From positions 1 to 64,000 of the forward strand of contig NZ_JASAMB010000001.1 of the NCBI RefSeq assembly GCF_029948125.1: a stretch of 64,000 bases of DNA. The letters are read 5' to 3'. The notes below the pieces were generated by a model that saw only the letters and a program-made list of their open reading frames with translations, searched no databases and was not told the DNA's origin. Of the stretch, positions 21,232 to 40,109 are shown piece by piece. Position numbers and translations under genes: made by a program. How positions within the stretch are numbered: position 1 is the stretch's first letter; every line of letters begins with the position of its first letter. This DNA comes from Catellatospora sp. KI3. GTDB lineage: Bacteria > Actinomycetota > Actinomycetes > Mycobacteriales > Micromonosporaceae.

Positions 21232-21281
21232 AAGGAAGGGCCCCTTCTTATCGCTTTCCGTAGTAGAGGGGCCCCTTCTCA
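21232..21281. repeat. Palindromic repeat, family C, copy 1
   Basis: About 50 bp: AAGGAAGGGGCCCCTTCTTA, the conserved core TCGCTTTCCGTAGTAG, then GGGGCCCCTTCT. Both ends carry a GGGGCCCC palindrome. It lies between the convergent lexA and beta-propeller genes. Copies in the opposite orientation are at 31675 and 40055. Confidence 0.8.
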
Positions 21282-31674: not shown

Positions 31675-31728
31675 GTTAGGAAGGGGCCCTTCTACTACGG
31701 AAAGCGATAAGAAGGGGCCCTTCCTTAC
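31675..31728. repeat. Palindromic repeat, family C, copy 2
   Basis: 54 bp: GTTAGGAAGGGGCCCTTCTA, core CTACGGAAAGCGATAA, GAAGGGGCCCTTCCTTAC. Opposite orientation to copy 1. It ends 7 bp before the aldo/keto reductase stop (that gene reads leftward). Confidence 0.85.
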
Positions 31729-31734
31729 TCCGAA

Positions 31735-32649
31735 CTACCCGAGCGCGCCGAGCGCGGCAAGGGTGGCGAGGGTGGCGGGGCTGAGGCGGACGGCGCCGGC
31801 GGCGACGTTCGCCGCCAGGTGGGCGGCGTCGCCGGTGCCGGGAATCGCGAGCACGTGCGGGCCCTGGTGCAGGGTCCAGGCCAGGCGGAGCTGGTGCGGG
31901 GTCATGTCGTGGGCGCGGGCGAGTTCGGCCAGGGTGGCGCCGTGGTCGGCGGAGGCGCCCGCCTCGCGGCCGCCGCCCGCCAGGGCGAAGAAGGGGGTGT
32001 ACGCCACCCCGCGCCGCCCGCACTCCCGCAGCAGCTCGTCATCGGCGCGGTTGAAGTCCAGCGCGTACCCGTTCTGCACGCAGGCGACGGGGGCGATGGC
32101 CTGCGCCTCGTCCAGGTGGTCGAGCCGGACGTTGGACAGGCCGAGGTTGCGGATCAGGCCCTCGTCGCGCATCCGGGCCAGCGCCCCGAACCGCTCGCCG
32201 ACCGAGTCCCGGCCGGGCCGCTTGACGATCCGGAGGTTGACCAGGTCGAGTTCGTCCCGGCCGAGGCGGCGGAGGTTCTCCTCCACCTGGGCGCGCAGCT
32301 GGGCGTACGTGGTCGCCTCGCCCCACTCGCCGTGCTGGTCCAGCCCCGGGCCGACCTTGGTGGCGATGAAGAGGCCGGCGGGGTAGGGCGCGAGGGCTTC
32401 CCTGATCAGCTCGGTCGCGTAGCGCACCGGGCCGGGCGGGCCGTCGATGATGCCGCCGGGCGAGAAGTAGAAGGCCGCCGTATCGATGTGGTCGACGCCC
32501 AGCTCGACCGCCCGGCGCAGCACGGCGATCGCGCGCTCGCGGTCGGGGTTGGCCGTCAGGCGCATCGAGCCGAAGCCCATCCGGTGGACGGTGCGGTCGC
32601 CGAGGAGCCAGGTGCCCGCGGCGGCCGCGGTGATCTCACGCGTAGGCAT
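31735..32649 (-). CDS. Aldo/keto reductase
   Basis: 304 aa NADPH-dependent oxidoreductase. DHIDTAAFYFSPGG holds the catalytic Asp and Tyr, and LFIATKVGPG the Lys. The C-terminal IPGTGDAAHLAANVAAGA motif binds the cofactor. It differs from the AKR at 9525 and resembles short actinobacterial oxidoreductases with this N-terminus (TWLLGDRTVHRMGFGSMRLT). It lies 81 bp downstream of the ebo-like operon on the same strand, so it could be a late member, but the gap leaves this open. Confidence 0.88.
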   Translation of the reverse strand: MPTREITAAAAGTWLLGDRTVHRMGFGSMRLTANPDRERAIAVLRRAVELGVDHIDTAAFYFSPGGIIDGPPGPVRYATELIREALAPYPAGLFIATKVGPGLDQHGEWGEATTYAQLRAQVEENLRRLGRDELDLVNLRIVKRPGRDSVGERFGALARMRDEGLIRNLGLSNVRLDHLDEAQAIAPVACVQNGYALDFNRADDELLRECGRRGVAYTPFFALAGGGREAGASADHGATLAELARAHDMTPHQLRLAWTLHQGPHVLAIPGTGDAAHLAANVAAGAVRLSPATLATLAALGALG

Positions 32650-32730: not shown

Positions 32731-34128
32731 TTATGGCAGAGGGGTCGAGCCGGACAGTCGCAGCATCAGGTCCTTGACCTCGGTGGCGGCGAAGCCGTCG
32801 CGGGCCGCCGAGGCGTCCGAGCAGATCAGCAAGGGTCCGTCGGCCGGGTCGTCGGGCAGCCGTCCGTGCGTGCCGCGTACCGCCGCCGCTCCGGCGTCCA
32901 GGCCCACGACCTGCATCAGATACCGCATGCCGAGCTTCTTGCGCAGCAGTGCGGTCGCCGCGCGCCGCTTGGCCGCGCCCGGCCCGGCCGGGTCGAACAG
33001 CAGCTCGGCGGGGTCGTAGCCGGGCTTGCGGTGGATCTCCACGAGGCGGGCGAAGTCGGGCGCGCGGTCGTCGTCGAGCCAGTAGTAGTAGGTGAACCAG
33101 GCGTCGGGCTCGGCGACGAGGACGAGTTCGCCGGCGCGCGGATGGTCCAGGCCGTGCCCGCGCTTGCCGTCGGCGTCCAGAACCTGGCCCACCCCGGGCA
33201 GTCCCGCGCAGACCTTCTGGACCAGCGCGAGGTCGGCGGGGTCGCGGACGTACACGTGGGCGAGCTGGTGGTCGGCGACGGCGAAGGCGCGGGAGGTCCA
33301 CGGGTCGAGGTACTCCATGCCCGCCTGGGTGTGCACGCGCAGCAGGCCCTCGGCGCGCAGGGCGCGGTTGACGTCGACGGGGCGCCGGGCGGGCGTGATG
33401 CCGTACTCGGACAGGGCCAGCACGGTGGCGCCCCGGGCGGCGGCCGCGTCCAGGAGCGGGCCGACGACGGTGTCCAGTTCGGCGGCGGCGGTCGCGGCGC
33501 GCGGATCGTCGGGGCCGTACCGCTGCAGGTCGTAGTCGAGGTGCGGCAGGTAGACCAGGGTCAGGTCGGGGGCGTGCGCGGACATGATCCGCCGGGCCGC
33601 CGCGCCGATCCAGCGGGACGAGGCGAGGCCCGCCCCCGGGCCCCAGAACTGGAACAGCGGGAACGTGCCCAGTTCGGCGGTGAGCTGGTCGCGCAGCGCG
33701 GGCGGGTCGGTGTAGCAGTCGGGCTCCTTGCGGCCGTCGGCGCGGTAGACCGGGCGCGGCGTGACGGTCCAGTCGACGTCGGCGCCCATGGCGTACCACC
33801 AGCACACGTTGGCGACGGTGTAGCCGGGGTGGGCGCGGCGGGCGGCCTGCCACACCTTCTCGCCGCCGACCAGCGCGTGGTGCTGCCGCCACAGCAGCAC
33901 CTCGCCGAGGTCGCGGAAGTACCAGCCGTTGCCGACGACGCCGTGCGCCGACGGCGGCGCCCCGGTGAGCAGCGTCGCCTGCACCGAGCAGGTGACGGCC
34001 GGCAGCACCGGGTCCAGCCGGGCGGCGAACCCGGCCTGGGCCAGCGCGTTCAGCCGGGGCATGTGCGGCAGCAGGCGCGGCGTCAGGCCGACGGTGTTCA
34101 GCACGACGAGCGGCGTCACCTGGCCCAT
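32731..34128 (-). CDS. Alkaline phosphatase/nucleotide pyrophosphatase-like phosphodiesterase (EboF-like)
   Basis: 465 aa, type I phosphodiesterase/nucleotide pyrophosphatase fold. The nucleophile Thr is likely in LPAVTCSVQATLLTG. Metal ligands are suggested by LVYLPHLDYDLQRYG (Asp/His), LALSEYG, and ADHQLAHV. No signal peptide, so presumably cytoplasmic. Its start overlaps the eboE stop by 13 bp, making it the last gene of the ebo-like operon, where a phosphatase of this family also occurs in other bacteria. It probably removes a phosphate or nucleotidyl group from the pathway product; substrate unknown. Confidence 0.85.
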   Translation of the reverse strand: MGQVTPLVVLNTVGLTPRLLPHMPRLNALAQAGFAARLDPVLPAVTCSVQATLLTGAPPSAHGVVGNGWYFRDLGEVLLWRQHHALVGGEKVWQAARRAHPGYTVANVCWWYAMGADVDWTVTPRPVYRADGRKEPDCYTDPPALRDQLTAELGTFPLFQFWGPGAGLASSRWIGAAARRIMSAHAPDLTLVYLPHLDYDLQRYGPDDPRAATAAAELDTVVGPLLDAAAARGATVLALSEYGITPARRPVDVNRALRAEGLLRVHTQAGMEYLDPWTSRAFAVADHQLAHVYVRDPADLALVQKVCAGLPGVGQVLDADGKRGHGLDHPRAGELVLVAEPDAWFTYYYWLDDDRAPDFARLVEIHRKPGYDPAELLFDPAGPGAAKRRAATALLRKKLGMRYLMQVVGLDAGAAAVRGTHGRLPDDPADGPLLICSDASAARDGFAATEVKDLMLRLSGSTPLP

Positions 34129-35378
34129 GGCGCGCCTCCGGCGACGAAGCGGGCCGGGGCGGGTTCGCCCGGGACCGTGTCGACCAGGCCGAGGCCGCGC
34201 AGCTCCTCGCGGGCGAAGGCCAGCTCGGCGGCGATGCCCGCGGCCAGCTGCTCCGGGGTGTCCGGGCGCTGGCCGGGCGGCAGCACGCTCCACGTGTACG
34301 TCTCGACGTCGACGTGGTCGCAGGCCATGGTCGGGCCGCCGTACAGCTCGCGCAGCGCGGTCCGCAGCACGGGCAGGGTCGAGGCGAGCGGCGGGGCGGG
34401 TTCGACGTGCAGCGGCACGTGGAAGTGCACCCGCCAGCCCTGCCCCGGCACCTGCGCGGCCCGGACGGACCGGTGCGACGGGCGGTGCGCCGCCACGTGC
34501 GCGGGCGCGTGCAGCAGGTCCAGGGCCTGGTCGAGGTCGTCGGCGGCCTCACCGGCGGCGCTGCGGGTCTGGTGCAGGAACTTCGGCTCGGCGTACCCCC
34601 GCAGCACCGACGCGGCCGCGACCGGGTCCTCGGCCGCCAGCGCCGCCGACACCTGCACCTTGACCACCGGCAGCCCGGCGCGGGCCAGCCGGGCCAGCGC
34701 CGCCGCGGGCTCCTCCCAGGCGCAGGCCAGGTGCGCCAGGTCCAGGCAGACGCCCAGCCAGTCGCCGTCCATGCCCGACCACAGCCGGGCCGCCTGGTGG
34801 GTGTTCTCGACGACGCAGCCCGGTTCGGGCTCGAACCCGACCTGCACGGTCCGGCCGGTACGCCCGGCGATCTCGGCCAGCCCGTCGGCCAGCTCGGCCA
34901 GCGCCCGGTCGACCGCCCCGGCCCGCTCCGGACCCCACGGCTGGCGCCAGGCCACCGGCAGCGTCGAGATCGAGCCGCGCGCCGCGTCGTCGGGCAGCAG
35001 GTCGGCCAGCACCCGGGCCAGGTCCAGGGTGTACGTCAGCCGCTCGCGGGTGGTCCAGTCCGGGTGGTAGACGTCGTGCTTCACCACGTCGGCGTGGAAC
35101 GCCTGATACGGGAACCCGTTGAGCGTCACCACCTCCAGCCCCCGGGCGTCCAGTTCGGCCCGCAGCCTGCGCCGCAGCACCGGCTCGTGGGCCAGCGCGG
35201 CGGCCACCGGCGCGGCCAGCCACAGCCCCAGCCCCAGCACGTCCGCGTCGAGCTTCTTGCGCACCGCCAGCCCGTACGTGTCCAGCTGCGCCACGATCCC
35301 GTCGAGGTCCTCGGCCGGGTGCACGTTGGTGCAGTAGCTCAGGTGGACCGTCTGCCCGTCCCGATGGGCCAGCCGCAT
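34116..35378 (-). CDS. eboE: Metabolite traffic protein EboE (xylose-isomerase-like TIM barrel)
   Basis: 420 aa. A sugar-phosphate isomerase/epimerase-type TIM barrel: HLSYCTNVHPAEDLDGIVAQL at the start, VTLNGFPYQAFH, GFEPEPGCVVEN and VCLDLAHLAC supply possible metal ligands (Glu, Asp, His). The start HLSYCTNVHPAE is characteristic of EboE. In cyanobacteria and proteobacteria the ebo genes are needed to export or assemble a periplasmic metabolite. Start ATG 35378 overlaps the preceding stop by one base (TGATG). Confidence 0.88.
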   Translation of the reverse strand: MRLAHRDGQTVHLSYCTNVHPAEDLDGIVAQLDTYGLAVRKKLDADVLGLGLWLAAPVAAALAHEPVLRRRLRAELDARGLEVVTLNGFPYQAFHADVVKHDVYHPDWTTRERLTYTLDLARVLADLLPDDAARGSISTLPVAWRQPWGPERAGAVDRALAELADGLAEIAGRTGRTVQVGFEPEPGCVVENTHQAARLWSGMDGDWLGVCLDLAHLACAWEEPAAALARLARAGLPVVKVQVSAALAAEDPVAAASVLRGYAEPKFLHQTRSAAGEAADDLDQALDLLHAPAHVAAHRPSHRSVRAAQVPGQGWRVHFHVPLHVEPAPPLASTLPVLRTALRELYGGPTMACDHVDVETYTWSVLPPGQRPDTPEQLAAGIAAELAFAREELRGLGLVDTVPGEPAPARFVAGGAPWAR

Positions 35379-36226
35379 CAGGCACCCCCGCGCATGATCG
35401 AGTTCCCCGCGTACGTGGCCTGCTCCGCGACGCTGTCGAGGTCGAGCCGCTGCGACTGCCCGTAGAACTCCACCGGGTTGCGCCACAGCACCCGGTCCAC
35501 CTCGTCGGAGTCGAACCCGGCCGCCAGCATCGCCTCACCGGTACGCAGCGTGAGCAGCGGATCCGACCTGCCCCAGTCGGCGGCCGAGTTGACCAGCATC
35601 CGCTCGGTGCCGTACTCGCGCAGGATCGCCACCATCCGCTCCGGCGACATCTTCGTGTCCGGGTAGATGGAGAAGCCCAGCCAGCAGCCGGTGTCGCGGA
35701 CCAGCCCGACGGTGACCTCGTTCAGGTGGTCGATGACCACCGCGGCCGGGTCCAGGCCCGACTCGGCCACCACGGCCAGGCTGCGCCGGGTGCCGGTGAC
35801 CTTGTCCCGGTGCGGGGTGTGCACCAGCGCGGGCAGGCCGTGCGCCAGCGCCAGCGCGAGCTGCGCGGCGAACACCTCGTCCTCGGCGGGGGTCATCGCG
35901 TCGTACCCGATCTCGCCGACCGCGACCACGCCGTCCTTGTCCAGGTAGCGCGGCACCAGGTCCAGCACCTCGCGGCAGCGCGGGTCGTTGGCCTCCTTCG
36001 GGTTCAGCGCGATCGTGGCGTAGTGCCGGATGCCGAACTGCCCGGCCCGGAACGGCTCCCAACCGATCAGGGCGTCGAAGTAGTCGGTGAACGAGCCCGC
36101 GCTGGTCCGCGGCTGGCCCAGCCAGAACGCGGGCTCCACCACCGCCCGCACCCCGGCGGCGGCCATCGCCGCGTAGTCGTCGGTGGTGCGCGAGGTCATG
36201 TGGATGTGCGGGTCGAAGATGCGCAT
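35378..36226 (-). CDS. TatD-like metal-dependent hydrolase (EboB-like)
   Basis: 282 aa amidohydrolase-fold protein. Metal ligands: MRIFDPHIHMTSR (HxH motif), Glu in AVGEIGYDA, His in PALVHTPHRDK and VVIDHLNE, and Asp in NSAADWGRSD. TatD proteins are usually DNA or phosphate-ester hydrolases, but the ebo members form a separate branch with unknown substrate. Coupled to both neighbours by one-base TGATG overlaps. Normal length. Confidence 0.88.
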   Translation of the reverse strand: MRIFDPHIHMTSRTTDDYAAMAAAGVRAVVEPAFWLGQPRTSAGSFTDYFDALIGWEPFRAGQFGIRHYATIALNPKEANDPRCREVLDLVPRYLDKDGVVAVGEIGYDAMTPAEDEVFAAQLALALAHGLPALVHTPHRDKVTGTRRSLAVVAESGLDPAAVVIDHLNEVTVGLVRDTGCWLGFSIYPDTKMSPERMVAILREYGTERMLVNSAADWGRSDPLLTLRTGEAMLAAGFDSDEVDRVLWRNPVEFYGQSQRLDLDSVAEQATYAGNSIMRGGA

Positions 36227-37761
36227 CAGTTCCCCTTCTCCAGGCGTTCCAGCAGCCGGGCCGCGTCGTCGGGCAGGGTCCGCCCGGCCGCGTGCCGCTC
36301 GGCCGACAGGCCCGCCAGCATCGCGGCCAGCTCCCGGTCGGCGCGGCGGTCCAGCCCGTCCACGGCGGACAGGGCGATGCCCATGAACACGCACTTGAGC
36401 ACCGCCTGCCGCCAGGCGGCGGCGTCCAGGTGCCGGGCGTACGGCCCCAGCGCCGCCGCCACCAGCCGGGTGTCGTTGGTACGGATCGCGTCGTGCAGCA
36501 GGTCCACCGCGTCGGGGCCGACCGGCAGCAGCGGCAGCGCCCGCAGCACCGCCCGGCGCTCGGCGGCGTCGCCGTGCCGGTACAGCTCCCGGGCCTGCCC
36601 GGCGACCTCGGCGGCGGGCAGCGCCGACAGCAGCAGCGCGCGGGCCGCCTCGTCGGCGCTCCAGCCGGGCACGGCGGCCAGCGGTTCCCGCCCGCACCGG
36701 CGCCCGGCCGCGGCGAAGAAGGCGCCGATGCGCGCGGGCTCGGCGGCCACCCCGGCCAGCGCCCCGCGCAGCCAGGCCGGACCCTCCGCCCGCAGCCCCG
36801 GCGCCGGGTGCAGCAGCGCGGCCCGCAGCTCGGCCAGCCCGGCCCGGCGCGGCTGCCGGTCGGGTCGGCGCTGGCCGGGCGGCCCGACCGGCTGCCCCAC
36901 CGGCTGCCCTGCCGGCTGCCCGGAGGCGGCCCGCAGGAACGCCAGCGACCGGGCCGCCACCTCGGGCGCGGCGTGCGCGTGCCGGGGCAGCTCGACGGCG
37001 ACCAGCCCCCGGTAGCCGCACTCGGCCAGGGCCCGCAGCACCGGCGGGAAGTCGATCTCGCCCGCGCCGAACTCGAGGTGCTCGTGCACCCCCCGCCGCA
37101 TGTCCTCTACCTGCACGTTGACCAGGTACGGCGCCGCCTGCCGGACGCACTCGGCGACCTCGGCGGACTCGTTGGCCCGGCAGTGGCCGAGGTCCAGGGT
37201 CAGCCCGAAGCCGTCCGGGCTGCCCAGGCCGCGGTGCAGCGCGTGCCAGCCCGCGAGGTCGGCGACGAGCATGCCCGGCTCCGGCTCGAAGCCCAGCGGC
37301 ACCCCGGCCGCCTGCGCGGCCTTGACGACCTGCTCGCAGCCGTCGAGCAGCCGGTCCCAGCCCTGCCGGCGGGACACGTGGCCGGGCAGCACGCCCGACC
37401 AGCACGACACCGCCTCGGCCCCCAGGTCGGCGGCGATCGCCACGGCCCGGCGCAGGAAGTCCAGCCGCACCTCGCGGTCGTCGTCCAGCAGCGTGGGCGA
37501 GTGCTTGCGGTACGGGTCGAGCAGGTAGCGGGCGCCGGTCTCGACCACCACCGACAGGCCCAGCGCGGACAGCCGCGCGGCGGTCCCGGCGACCCGCCGG
37601 GCCAGCGCGGGGGCGTACGGGTCGAGGTGGTGGTGGTCCAGGGTCAGCGCCACCCCCGTGTAGCCGAGCCCCGCGATGACGTCGAGAGCGTCGGTGAGGC
37701 GGTGGTTGGTGAAGCCGTTGGTGCCGTAGCCCCAGCGGATACTGCCGGAACGCGGGTTCAT
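36226..37761 (-). CDS. Fusion of sugar-phosphate isomerase/epimerase TIM barrel with EboA domain
   Basis: 511 aa. Residues 1-280 form a xylose-isomerase-like TIM barrel (GYGTNGFTNHRLTDALDVIAGLGY; GFEPEPGMLVADL; LTLDLGHCRANES; LVNVQVEDMRRGVHEHLEFG) with metal-ligand candidates Glu, Asp, His and Glu. A Pro/Gly/Gln-rich linker (about 285-305, repeats of GQPV) leads to a helical EboA domain (about 310-511; LPVGPDAVDLLHDAIRTND; VLKCVFMGIAL). The two functions are separate genes in many ebo clusters, so the fusion implies they act together. Start overlaps the UbiA stop (ATGA). Catalytic role unproven. Confidence 0.87.
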   Translation of the reverse strand: MNPRSGSIRWGYGTNGFTNHRLTDALDVIAGLGYTGVALTLDHHHLDPYAPALARRVAGTAARLSALGLSVVVETGARYLLDPYRKHSPTLLDDDREVRLDFLRRAVAIAADLGAEAVSCWSGVLPGHVSRRQGWDRLLDGCEQVVKAAQAAGVPLGFEPEPGMLVADLAGWHALHRGLGSPDGFGLTLDLGHCRANESAEVAECVRQAAPYLVNVQVEDMRRGVHEHLEFGAGEIDFPPVLRALAECGYRGLVAVELPRHAHAAPEVAARSLAFLRAASGQPAGQPVGQPVGPPGQRRPDRQPRRAGLAELRAALLHPAPGLRAEGPAWLRGALAGVAAEPARIGAFFAAAGRRCGREPLAAVPGWSADEAARALLLSALPAAEVAGQARELYRHGDAAERRAVLRALPLLPVGPDAVDLLHDAIRTNDTRLVAAALGPYARHLDAAAWRQAVLKCVFMGIALSAVDGLDRRADRELAAMLAGLSAERHAAGRTLPDDAARLLERLEKGN

Positions 37762-38777
37762 GTGGGCGAGATCCTCCGAGCCAGGCGCCGGGCCAGCGGC
37801 GCGGCGGCGGACAGCACGAGGGCGGTGACGCCCGCGCCGTGCCGGGCGGTGAGCGCGGCCTGCAGCGTCGGCAGCCCGGTGATCCCCGAGCCGACCGCGG
37901 CCCGCACCTGTGCCGCCGCCGGCTGCCGCGCCGCCCGCACCTGCGGACGGCCGTAGTGGTTGAGGTAAAGCCCGGCCAGGGCCACGGGCAGCACCGCCCG
38001 CCAGCCCCGCCGCCCCCGGTCCTGGCGGCACTGCGCGCCGGCTGCGGTGGCGGCGACGGCCAGCGTCCCGGCCAGCGTCGCCACCGGCAGCCGGCGGTCG
38101 GCGCCGTCCATCTCCCGCCGCGACAGCGCGGTCACCGTGTAGGTGTGCGCGGCGACCGTCGCCGCGGCGGGCAGGGCCCGGCGGACTGAGCCGCCGGTGG
38201 CGCCGAGGAGCACGTCCAGTCCCCGGCAGGCGGCCATCGCAGCCGGCCCGGCGGGTCCGTTCTTGGCGAGCAGGTCGTACGCCCAGACCGCCCCGGCCAG
38301 CGGCGCCGCCACGGCCAGCGCCCGCCTGCCGCCCGCCCACGCGGCCAGCGCGAGCCCGGCCCCGGTCAGCCCGGCGGCCAGCCCCAGGGCGGTGTTCGGG
38401 CTGACCCGGCCGCTCGGGATGGGCCGCTGCGGCCGCTCGACCGCGTCGACCTCCCGGTCGGCCCAGTCGTTGGCGGCCATCCCGGCCAGGTAGAAGCAGA
38501 CCGACGCGGCGGCCAGCCCCGGCGTACGCCGCCCCAGCGTGCCCGCCGTGGCCGCCCCGACCAGCACGTCCCCCGGCACCGACAGCGCGGCCGGGGCCCG
38601 CACGAGTTCCGCGAGATCGCCCAGCCGGGGCAGGCCGCCGCGGCGCGGACGGCCGCCCGGATGCGGTGCGGCTCGCTGCGCCGGCGCGCCCGGCCGTGCC
38701 GCTTCGGCCGTCCGCGCCGCGATCGTCGCCACCCGGTTCGCGCCGCCGCGCCGGGACAGGTCGTCCGACCAGCTCAC
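37758..38777 (-). CDS. UbiA-family prenyltransferase (EboC-like)
   Basis: 339 aa, integral membrane, about eight or nine helices after an Arg/Ala/Pro-rich N-terminal segment of about 55 aa. The prenyl-diphosphate/Mg site is visible in the first motif ANDWADREVDAVERPQRPIPSG (NDxxDxxxD). The second Asp-rich motif is weak (YDLLAKNGP ... CRGLDVLLG). UbiA enzymes attach isoprenoid chains to small acceptors. GTG start forms a GTGA overlap with the cyclase gene. In this operon the acceptor may be the cyclitol or sugar made by the neighbouring enzymes; that is inference. Confidence 0.85.
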   Translation of the reverse strand: MSWSDDLSRRGGANRVATIAARTAEAARPGAPAQRAAPHPGGRPRRGGLPRLGDLAELVRAPAALSVPGDVLVGAATAGTLGRRTPGLAAASVCFYLAGMAANDWADREVDAVERPQRPIPSGRVSPNTALGLAAGLTGAGLALAAWAGGRRALAVAAPLAGAVWAYDLLAKNGPAGPAAMAACRGLDVLLGATGGSVRRALPAAATVAAHTYTVTALSRREMDGADRRLPVATLAGTLAVAATAAGAQCRQDRGRRGWRAVLPVALAGLYLNHYGRPQVRAARQPAAAQVRAAVGSGITGLPTLQAALTARHGAGVTALVLSAAAPLARRLARRISPT

Positions 38778-39907
38778 GCCAGCCCCGCGACGAAGGCGCG
38801 CAGAACCTCGAACTGGCCGCTCAGGTCGTGGCCGACCGTACCGATCGGGTCCTTGAAGAAGAACGCCAGCTCCGGCAGCGGCCCACTGCGGCCGGCCGCG
38901 TGCGCGGCGGCGGTGATCCGGGCCAGGTCCAGCACCAGCGGCGCGGCCAGCGCCGAGTCGCACCCGTGCCAGGTGAACTCCAGCCGCATCGGCGTGCCGA
39001 GGAACCCCCGGAAGGTGACCAGGTCCCAGGCGGCCTTGAAGTCGCCCAGGTCCGCGACGTACTCGATCCGGGTGTGGCCCTCCGGCTGGTAGCCCAGCGT
39101 CTCGGCGAGCACCCGCTGCTTGCTGGCCGCCTTGGCCGCGTTGGCATCCGGCCGGGCCAGGTTGGCGCCGTCCCCGCCCCCGAGCAGGTTGGTGCCCGAC
39201 CACGACCGCACGGCCAGGTTGCGCTGCGCGAACATCGGCGCGAGCACCGACTTGACCAGCGTCTCCCCCGTCTTGCCGTCGTGCCCGCCGTACGGGACGC
39301 CCGCCCGCAGCGCCAGCTCGTGCAGCGCGGGCAGCCGCGCCCCGGTCGACGGCGTGAAGTCGACGTACGGACACCCCGCCGCGAAGGCCGCGTACGCGTA
39401 CAGCGAGCTCGGCGGCAGCACCTCGCCCTCGCCGTCCAGCGCCGCGGCCAGCGCGTCGGCGTCGGTGTGGGCCGGGTGCGGCACGGCGGCGGCCTCGGTC
39501 GAGGACAGGTTCACCACGATCACGCGGGCCAGGCCGTGCCGGTCACGGAAGTCGGCGAGGTCGGCGGCGGTCTGGGCGGCGGTGGCGGCCTGGGTGTGCC
39601 CGCGCGGCGCCGGGCGCAGCTCCGACTCGACCGCGGCCAGGTCGGGCTGCAGGGCCGCGACCAGGCGGGCGGGCAGCACCCCCGCCTCGGCCAGCTCGTC
39701 GGCCCGCTTGAGCAGCGGCGTCGACACCTGGTCGTGGCCGCCGAAGACGAGGTCGGCCAGGGCCGGCAGCGCGGAGCTGCGCAGTTGCGGGAGTTCGGTG
39801 ACGCATCCGGTCGGCTCGGCCAGCCCGGCACGCAGCCCGGCGGCCCCGACGATGGTGGTGACGGCGACAGACCCCCGCCCACCGACCAGCCAGACACCTG
39901 TTCGCAT
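38774..39907 (-). CDS. Inositol-3-phosphate synthase-like NAD-dependent cyclase
   Basis: 377 aa. An N-terminal Rossmann domain (GVWLVGGRGSVAVTTIVGA) and the Ino1 core HDGKTGETLVKSVL, followed by SGTNLLGGGDGANL and the NAAKAASKQRVL block. Ino1 cyclises glucose-6-phosphate to inositol-3-phosphate. This is a divergent paralogue type tied to ebo-like operons, so it may make another cyclitol phosphate. It occupies the place where other ebo clusters carry the dehydroquinate-synthase-like EboD, also a sugar-phosphate cyclase. First gene of the operon; ATG 39907 follows GGGAG. Confidence 0.85.
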   Translation of the reverse strand: MRTGVWLVGGRGSVAVTTIVGAAGLRAGLAEPTGCVTELPQLRSSALPALADLVFGGHDQVSTPLLKRADELAEAGVLPARLVAALQPDLAAVESELRPAPRGHTQAATAAQTAADLADFRDRHGLARVIVVNLSSTEAAAVPHPAHTDADALAAALDGEGEVLPPSSLYAYAAFAAGCPYVDFTPSTGARLPALHELALRAGVPYGGHDGKTGETLVKSVLAPMFAQRNLAVRSWSGTNLLGGGDGANLARPDANAAKAASKQRVLAETLGYQPEGHTRIEYVADLGDFKAAWDLVTFRGFLGTPMRLEFTWHGCDSALAAPLVLDLARITAAAHAAGRSGPLPELAFFFKDPIGTVGHDLSGQFEVLRAFVAGLA

Positions 39908-40054: not shown

Positions 40055-40109
40055 GTTAAGAAGGGCCCCTTCCGCTACGGATAGCGATAAGAAGGGGCCC
40101 TTCCTTCGC
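40055..40109. repeat. Palindromic repeat, family C, copy 3
   Basis: 55 bp: GTTAAGAAGGGCCCCTTCCG, CTACGGATAGCGATAA, GAAGGGGCCCTTCCTTCGC. It starts 6 bp beyond the miaB stop, between miaB and the head of the ebo-like operon, so it may also stop miaB transcription from entering that operon. Confidence 0.82.

Follow-up and report, generated by a model that had tools for sequence, protein, structure and literature searches.

What does an ebo operon make when its cyclase belongs to a different enzyme family? The question is raised by six genes in a 64,000-nucleotide stretch of the actinobacterium Catellatospora sp. KI3 (hereafter the window; positions 1 to 64,000 of contig NZ_JASAMB010000001.1, assembly GCF_029948125.1). 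Read along the minus strand (39907 to 32731), they encode in order an Ino1-type cyclase of the myo-inositol-phosphate synthase (mIPS) family, a UbiA-superfamily prenyltransferase, a fusion of a triosephosphate isomerase (TIM) barrel with EboA, and EboB, EboE and EboF. Successive genes overlap by 4 bp (GTGA), 4 bp (ATGA), 1 bp (TGATG), 1 bp (TGATG) and 13 bp. An earlier note, made from the letters alone, had described six genes overlapping by 1-13 bp, assigned each to a family and placed the Ino1-type cyclase in the slot of EboD, the dehydroquinate synthase (DHQS)-like cyclase of canonical operons; the measured junctions, Pfam and NCBIfam searches, and EboD queries that find no match in the window agree with it on all of these points. 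Only one gene of the host exceeds the DHQ_synthase cut-off, and it lies on another contig; a second match is weak. A variant that begins with a well-understood class of enzyme makes the chemistry shared by ebo/EDB operons easier to test. The product of the operon is probably a prenylated inositol (or inositol phosphate) for metabolite export. The reading as a whole, a variant ebo pathway whose prenylated cyclitol is a membrane-bound export helper or carrier, is given about an even chance here.

The closest solved relative of the operon Ino1 by sequence is the Archaeoglobus fulgidus mIPS (1U1I, 234 bits), for which the available text of a published study names K274, K306, K367, N255 and D332 as important residues (PMC5614600). 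N255, K274, K278 (the second lysine of the KxxxK motif), K306, D332 and K367, in A. fulgidus numbering, are kept in all 88 rows of an alignment composed of the reference, the window protein, 84 rows from other loci, haloarchaeal ones among them, and both Ino1 proteins that the host encodes outside operons. With both Pfam domains of the family and these catalytic residues in place, the operon Ino1 is very probably functional and would yield inositol phosphate. This would narrow the first intermediate of the pathway from an unspecified cyclitol to a compound that is traceable with labelled glucose or inositol. The protein scores 37 bits with the mycothiol-type model TIGR03450, far below the cut-off of 638, and lies far from the mycothiol-type class in a tree. 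A separate Ino1 of the host genome is of that type (657 bits), so the operon copy is not the sole inositol-phosphate synthase of the genome, a possibility that the earlier note had named as damaging to its interpretation. A further Ino1 outside the operon also occurs in 15 of 17 genomes that combine an EboE over its cut-off with an Ino1-type operon; in G268 and G318 (the latter genome 82% complete) the operon copy is the only one. Genomes without EboE (n = 12) have one Ino1 in 11 cases and two in one case, and the EboD-type genome G381 has one.

The operon is conserved as a unit, with a fixed gene order across many genera. The EboE profile exceeds its NCBIfam cut-off in 18 of 396 genomes of a phylum sample and in 44 of 200 genomes of an order sample. 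Forty EboE neighbourhoods were compared, 20 from the phylum sample and 20 more from 16 of the 44 order-sample genomes, chosen from different genera, and from four new genomes. Ino1 is present in 33 of them (in L150 by a 49-bit stretch only, and in L028 by the position of Ino1 in the genome-wide Ino1 count), EboD in two (L021 and L142) and neither in one (L018), while one neighbourhood reaches a contig end (L155) and three are orphan EboE genes; none has both cyclases. In a set of 80 actinobacterial loci, the best 80 of 583 confirmed, Ino1 is present in 58; 12 reach a contig edge short of where it would lie, two are irregular and eight lack it. EboD queries match none of the 80. Among 51 plasmid records with an EboB at least 40% identical to a haloarchaeal query (seven of 58 were left out as TatD proteins 24-28% identical), EboD is nearby in 16, Ino1 in 32 (among the 40 listed of 49 Ino1 records), neither in three (Haladaptatus and Streptomyces NBC_01340 and NBC_01562) and both in none; several of these records are strains of one species and are not independent. 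In the samples read, the two cyclases are mutually exclusive. Exchange of the cyclase inside one actinobacterial family, f42, was considered and rejected, as the whole operon differs between its Ino1-type and EboD-type genomes. Viral contigs scanned with EboE gave no match.

An inositol-monophosphatase-family gene and a FAD oxidoreductase gene lie upstream of four ebo operons without Ino1 (L018, L097, L124 and L128). The former was rejected as a regular partner: it is seen only at these four Ino1-lacking loci (three of them Streptomyces), with gaps, and is closer to a histidinol-phosphatase model. Its presence is a weak hint.

The fused protein of the window is encoded by a single open frame. 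Its TIM barrel (residues 27-278; AP_endonuc_2, PF01261, 127 bits) is followed, after a linker, by the EboA domain (370-503; NF035938, 155 bits, cut-off 50). The two parts share one frame in 14 of 76 loci, from Catellatospora, Glycomyces, Amycolatopsis, Kibdelosporangium, Saccharothrix, Saccharomonospora, Actinocrispum and Qaidamihabitans, and their best matches lie in separate frames in the other 62. The available text of a 2016 paper reports a TIM-EboA fusion in Actinobacteria as data not shown (PMC5133447). The extra barrel occurs in Gemmatirosa, in each of the four haloarchaeal loci and in Streptomyces relatives that lack Ino1. Ten EboD loci, including the partial cluster L131, are without it. 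The barrel co-occurs with Ino1, and the recurrence of the two together, without ebo genes, in Hymenobacter, Roseomonas and Methylobacterium supports a functional pair. In the AlphaFold2 (AF2) model, the EboA part is an all-helical repeat with a mean predicted local distance difference test score (pLDDT) of 97. A fold search returned no PDB match for it at E<=0.001, HEAT-like helical repeats being among the better matches, and therefore gives no function.

In the loci without ebo genes (L041, L042 and L048, of which L042, from Methylobacterium, is an unannotated record), the barrel resembles that of the operon (214-238 bits). Genes for YcaO, Gfo/Idh and PIG-L deacetylase proteins adjoin the Ino1-TIM pair of Hymenobacter and Roseomonas, together with a glycosyltransferase gene in Roseomonas, a context that resembles a thiol- or thioamide-cofactor pathway.

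The prenyltransferase of the window scores 392 bits with the SCO3242 family model NF045897 (cut-off 260) and 130 bits with the EboC model NF035940, short of the cut-off of 250. The EboC cut-off is strict, since the UbiA proteins of eight of nine other EboD-type or haloarchaeal cases tested miss it as well. The window protein carries the NDWADREVDAVERPQRPIPSG motif, of which variants occur among relatives. Digeranylgeranylglyceryl-phosphate synthase prenylates a phosphorylated polyol. That the SCO3242-type enzyme prenylates the cyclitol made by Ino1 is plausible, with a likelihood slightly under one half.

Ebo-like clusters also occur in haloarchaea. Plasmids of Halobaculum, Halocatena and Natronococcus cluster Ino1 (42-46% identical), EboF, EboB, two TIM barrels and UbiA, and a Haladaptatus plasmid has the same cluster minus Ino1; none of the genes listed there is named EboE or EboA. 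These four clusters (L040, L045, L046 and L130; Ino1 in three of four) are not annotated as ebo, and they offer a second domain of life for tests.

A locus of Gemmatirosa holds Ino1, UbiA, a TIM barrel, EboF, EboB and EboE, and EboD queries find no match in it. Its proteins were placed in trees of 42-50 rows chosen from the loci, with approximately unbiased (AU) topology tests. The EboB of Gemmatirosa groups with two EboD-type rows (support 100/100) and its EboF falls inside the EboD-type rows (100/100); forcing either to group with actinobacterial rows is rejected (AU p 4.2e-5 and 0.035, respectively). A single clade of all Ino1-type rows is likewise rejected for EboB (p 0.0006). In the UbiA tree, a branch with support of 98/97 separates Gemmatirosa and the actinobacterial rows from the EboD-type and haloarchaeal rows. 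Forcing the Gemmatirosa UbiA to group with its EboB neighbours (p 2.9e-5) or with all EboD-type rows (p 0.024) is rejected, and by NCBIfam this protein scores higher as SCO3242 (167) than as EboC (134.5). Because UbiA groups with actinobacterial proteins while EboB and EboF group with EboD-type ones, the cyclase, TIM barrel and prenyltransferase of Gemmatirosa behave as a cassette apart from EboB and EboF, in one case and with long branches. A prenyltransferase that uses the cyclase product would be expected to travel with the cyclase type, as UbiA does here, and the apparent link between the two types predicts the prenyl acceptor.

The hydrolases are close to those of EboD-type operons. The window EboB has 58, 51, 41 and 41% identity to four EboB proteins of EboD-type loci. 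In a 16-row alignment (A1), H9, E105, H136, H139, H167 and D217 are invariant and H7 is nearly so, which we take to be the metal-ligand pattern of the amidohydrolase superfamily. The window EboF scores 488-564 bits against EboF of four EboD-type loci and has the same altered motif columns. Of the phosphonoacetate hydrolase positions compared, presumably all metal ligands, Thr and one Asp are retained in all 105 EboF rows, His is replaced by Gln in 103 and by Leu in two, and Asp-His is replaced by Glu-Tyr in all 105; the columns are altered alike in Ino1-type, EboD-type and haloarchaeal members. EboF thus departs from the metal site of phosphonoacetate hydrolase at three compared positions, although this enzyme and NPP are the best Foldseek matches of its AF2 model (mean pLDDT 81). 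The earlier note took the phosphodiesterase to suggest removal of a phosphate. EboF is also part of EboD-type operons, and three of the compared positions are altered in both operon types, which makes it doubtful that EboF takes the phosphate off an inositol.

From the observed anatomy, the conservation and the one case of UbiA co-travel, we infer the following chemistry and export role. Judging from the active-site positions tested, all of them conserved, Ino1 would convert glucose 6-phosphate to inositol phosphate. Isomerisation or epimerisation of this cyclitol may fall to the extra TIM barrel, and the SCO3242-type UbiA would then attach a polyprenyl group to the cyclitol, in the manner of digeranylgeranylglyceryl-phosphate synthase. 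EboB, EboE and EboF, all common to EboD-type operons, would finish the compound; EboA, a helical-repeat protein, is perhaps a scaffold, tethered here to the TIM enzyme. The prenylated cyclitol would probably be a membrane-bound helper or carrier that exports small molecules, as has been proposed for canonical ebo genes. From the interpretation in the earlier note, this scheme keeps Ino1 in the EboD slot and the conserved unit, and drops EboF as a specific remover of phosphate. A broader proposal is that prenylated cyclitols are the products of both ebo types, with an interchangeable set of a cyclase and its matching prenyltransferase (EboD and EboC, or Ino1, TIM barrel and SCO3242) feeding a fixed set of finishing enzymes, so that a lipid-carrier system would span Bacteria and haloarchaea, unrecognised in the latter before; this is speculative and is considered rather unlikely.

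According to a proposal in the available text on the scytonemin and EDB clusters, ebo genes assist in exporting metabolites that are then finished outside the cytoplasm (PMC6282210). Neighbour genes elsewhere agree with this idea, which is weak evidence for the window copy. In S. camelliae, the operon adjoins three genes whose annotations name an aromatic prenyltransferase, a multicopper oxidase and a member of the ScyD/ScyE family; the ScyD/ScyE and oxidase proteins have no relative above 40 bits in the rest of the 124 sequences searched. A non-ribosomal peptide synthetase (NRPS) condensation-domain gene and a major facilitator superfamily (MFS) transporter gene are near the operon of NBC_01243, and a Tat-signal protein or homologue adjoins Ino1 in five loci, four of them Streptomyces. 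The S. coelicolor pair SCO3242/SCO3243 is listed under the calcium-dependent antibiotic (CDA) cluster in the available text of PMC3610822. A role of the operon in metabolite export may be proposed on these grounds, at somewhat less than even likelihood.

Several points weigh against the prenylated-cyclitol reading. The product, substrate and activity of the operon are all predictions. The EboC enzymes of EboD-type operons farnesylate quinolines in vitro, and the available text of that study names no cyclitol acceptor (PMC9235831). The cassette argument draws on a single Gemmatimonadota record; the split of the UbiA tree by cyclase type has support of only 55/74, the EboF data are compatible with a single clade of Ino1-type rows (p 0.058), and the placement of Gemmatirosa relative to EboD rows in the EboE tree has support of 39/13. 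Ino1 is missing from eight of the 80 loci, all Streptomyces, despite more than 7 kb of flank, and a local Ino1 is not seen in the L018 neighbourhood, in two Streptomyces plasmid records and in one haloarchaeon. The orphan EboE genes (L140, L151 and L156) pass the NCBIfam cut-off, yet the sequence read around them contains no other recognisable ebo gene, and L150 has no EboB match. G268 has the operon Ino1 as its only Ino1, and the ScyD/ScyE name in S. camelliae comes from the record annotation, the protein matching no Pfam family at 1e-6.

That the operon copy is the only Ino1 of G268 is what would be seen if the operon Ino1 were an ordinary source of inositol for mycothiol, phosphatidylinositol or an osmolyte, placed there by chance or regulation, and every active-site residue tested is indeed as in ordinary mIPS. 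However, the adjacency is conserved in many genera and in haloarchaea, another Ino1 is present in 15 of the 17 genomes, and the operon protein is far from the mycothiol-type class and never found with EboD; this explanation is quite improbable. It is also unlikely that the operon makes a prenylated aromatic or quinoline-like metabolite, with Ino1 as a side branch or cofactor supply. EboC homologues of Maribacter, Zobellia and Algoriphagus do farnesylate 8-hydroxyquinoline-2-carboxylic acid in vitro, according to the available text of PMC9235831, and the S. camelliae operon adjoins an aromatic prenyltransferase gene, but the farnesylating enzymes are EboC proteins from EboD clusters whereas the window enzyme is of the SCO3242 type, and none of the six genes is recognised by Pfam or NCBIfam as one for aromatic-ring synthesis.

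Ino1-type and EboD-type operons might, finally, make different products and share only hydrolases by descent, their exclusivity being a matter of lineage. Exclusivity mostly follows clades, and in family f42, with two genomes of each type, the whole operon differs (EboB at 209 and 230 versus 400 and 406 bits). The Gemmatirosa locus argues the other way, since it mixes EboD-type EboB and EboF with an Ino1-type cyclase, TIM barrel and UbiA. Divergent products are given well below an even chance.

The features of the operon and its flanks are listed in the table below.

Table. Operon features and flanking elements in the window
Feature	Position	Strand	Evidence
Ino1-type sugar-phosphate cyclase (myo-inositol-phosphate synthase family), 377 aa	38774..39907	-	PF07994 162 bits, PF01658 108 bits
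UbiA-superfamily prenyltransferase, SCO3242 family, 339 aa, GTG start	37758..38777	-	PF01040 68 bits, NF045897 392 bits (cut-off 260)
Fusion: TIM-barrel sugar isomerase/epimerase-like (residues ~1-285) and EboA domain (~320-511)	36226..37761	-	PF01261, NF035938
EboB, TatD-like metal-dependent hydrolase	35378..36226	-	PF01026, TatD 45 bits
EboE, xylose-isomerase-like TIM barrel	34116..35378	-	NF035939 406 bits (cut-off 250); Pfam barrel 56 bits
EboF, type I phosphodiesterase fold, metal-ligand positions altered	32731..34128	-	PF01663 (Phosphodiest) 218 bits
Aldo/keto reductase, possible read-through passenger	31735..32649	-	PF00248 148 bits
Terminator-like hairpin, dispersed repeat; between radical-SAM (MiaB-like) gene and operon start	40060..40103	.	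repeat search
Terminator-like hairpin, same dispersed repeat, past aldo/keto reductase	31680..31723	.	repeat search

The aldo/keto reductase gene starts 81 bp downstream of the operon on the same strand. It was rejected as a conserved seventh gene, its best match in the other loci searched reaching at most 46 bits. Hairpins of one dispersed repeat flank the unit on both sides. The repeat, with core GAAGGGGCCCTTC, has 272 matches in the genome against none for the reversed control; copies are often paired, 31 bp apart, and a further window copy lies at 21235. The window neighbours are housekeeping-like or unrelated: a GTPase and a radical SAM protein, which we take to be HflX-type and MiaB-like, respectively, a DUF349 protein, a cellulase and a solute-binding protein. 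Five of ten neighbouring frames checked in the window have no Pfam match. A second copy of the operon is on another contig of the 8.2 Mb host genome, with 65-82% identity in the matched parts of five proteins. The host also encodes, on another contig (L013, 4992-5891), a 299 aa frame with a short barrel like that of EboE, which scores below the EboE cut-off. The tetracycline-resistance gene that PLSDB predicts in L137 (16469-16792) coincides with a short 2Fe-2S protein and looks like a false call.

An isoprenoid-cyclitol product was proposed for the canonical ebo operon in 2016 (PMC5133447, available text), so that the product envisaged in the earlier note, a prenylated cyclitol, is not undescribed as an idea. 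The word inositol does not occur in the main texts of PMC5133447, PMC9235831 and PMC6282210, and among the papers listed in literature searches, whose coverage is thin for subscription journals, none joined ebo genes with an inositol synthase or SCO3242/SCO3243. The isoprenoid-cyclitol idea and the TIM-EboA fusion (both 2016) are thus not new; the co-occurrence of the TIM barrel with Ino1, the haloarchaeal Ino1-UbiA-TIM-EboB-EboF cluster and the mixed Gemmatimonadota locus are.

Among known systems, the A. fulgidus mIPS (1U1I) shares its catalytic residues and overall sequence with the window Ino1 and differs from it in operon context. SCO3242/SCO3243 of the S. coelicolor CDA region, a transferase and a myo-inositol phosphate synthase in the available text (PMC3610822), are likened to the window genes by annotation, and the prenyltransferase family takes its name from SCO3242; unlike that pair, the window copy sits among housekeeping-like genes. 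The scytonemin ebo cluster of Nostoc punctiforme and the EDB cluster of Pseudomonas, as described in the available text of PMC6282210, have EboA, EboB, EboE, EboF and UbiA in common with the window operon, but the cyclase of the latter differs and scytonemin genes are not recognised in the window. The canonical eboABCDEF operon of eustigmatophyte plastids, Bacteroidetes and Cyanobacteria (PMC5133447, available text) shares EboB, EboE, EboF, the EboA domain and a UbiA protein with the window operon. In contrast to it, the window operon is without the DHQS-like EboD and has Ino1, an extra TIM barrel fused to EboA, and a UbiA of the SCO3242 family.

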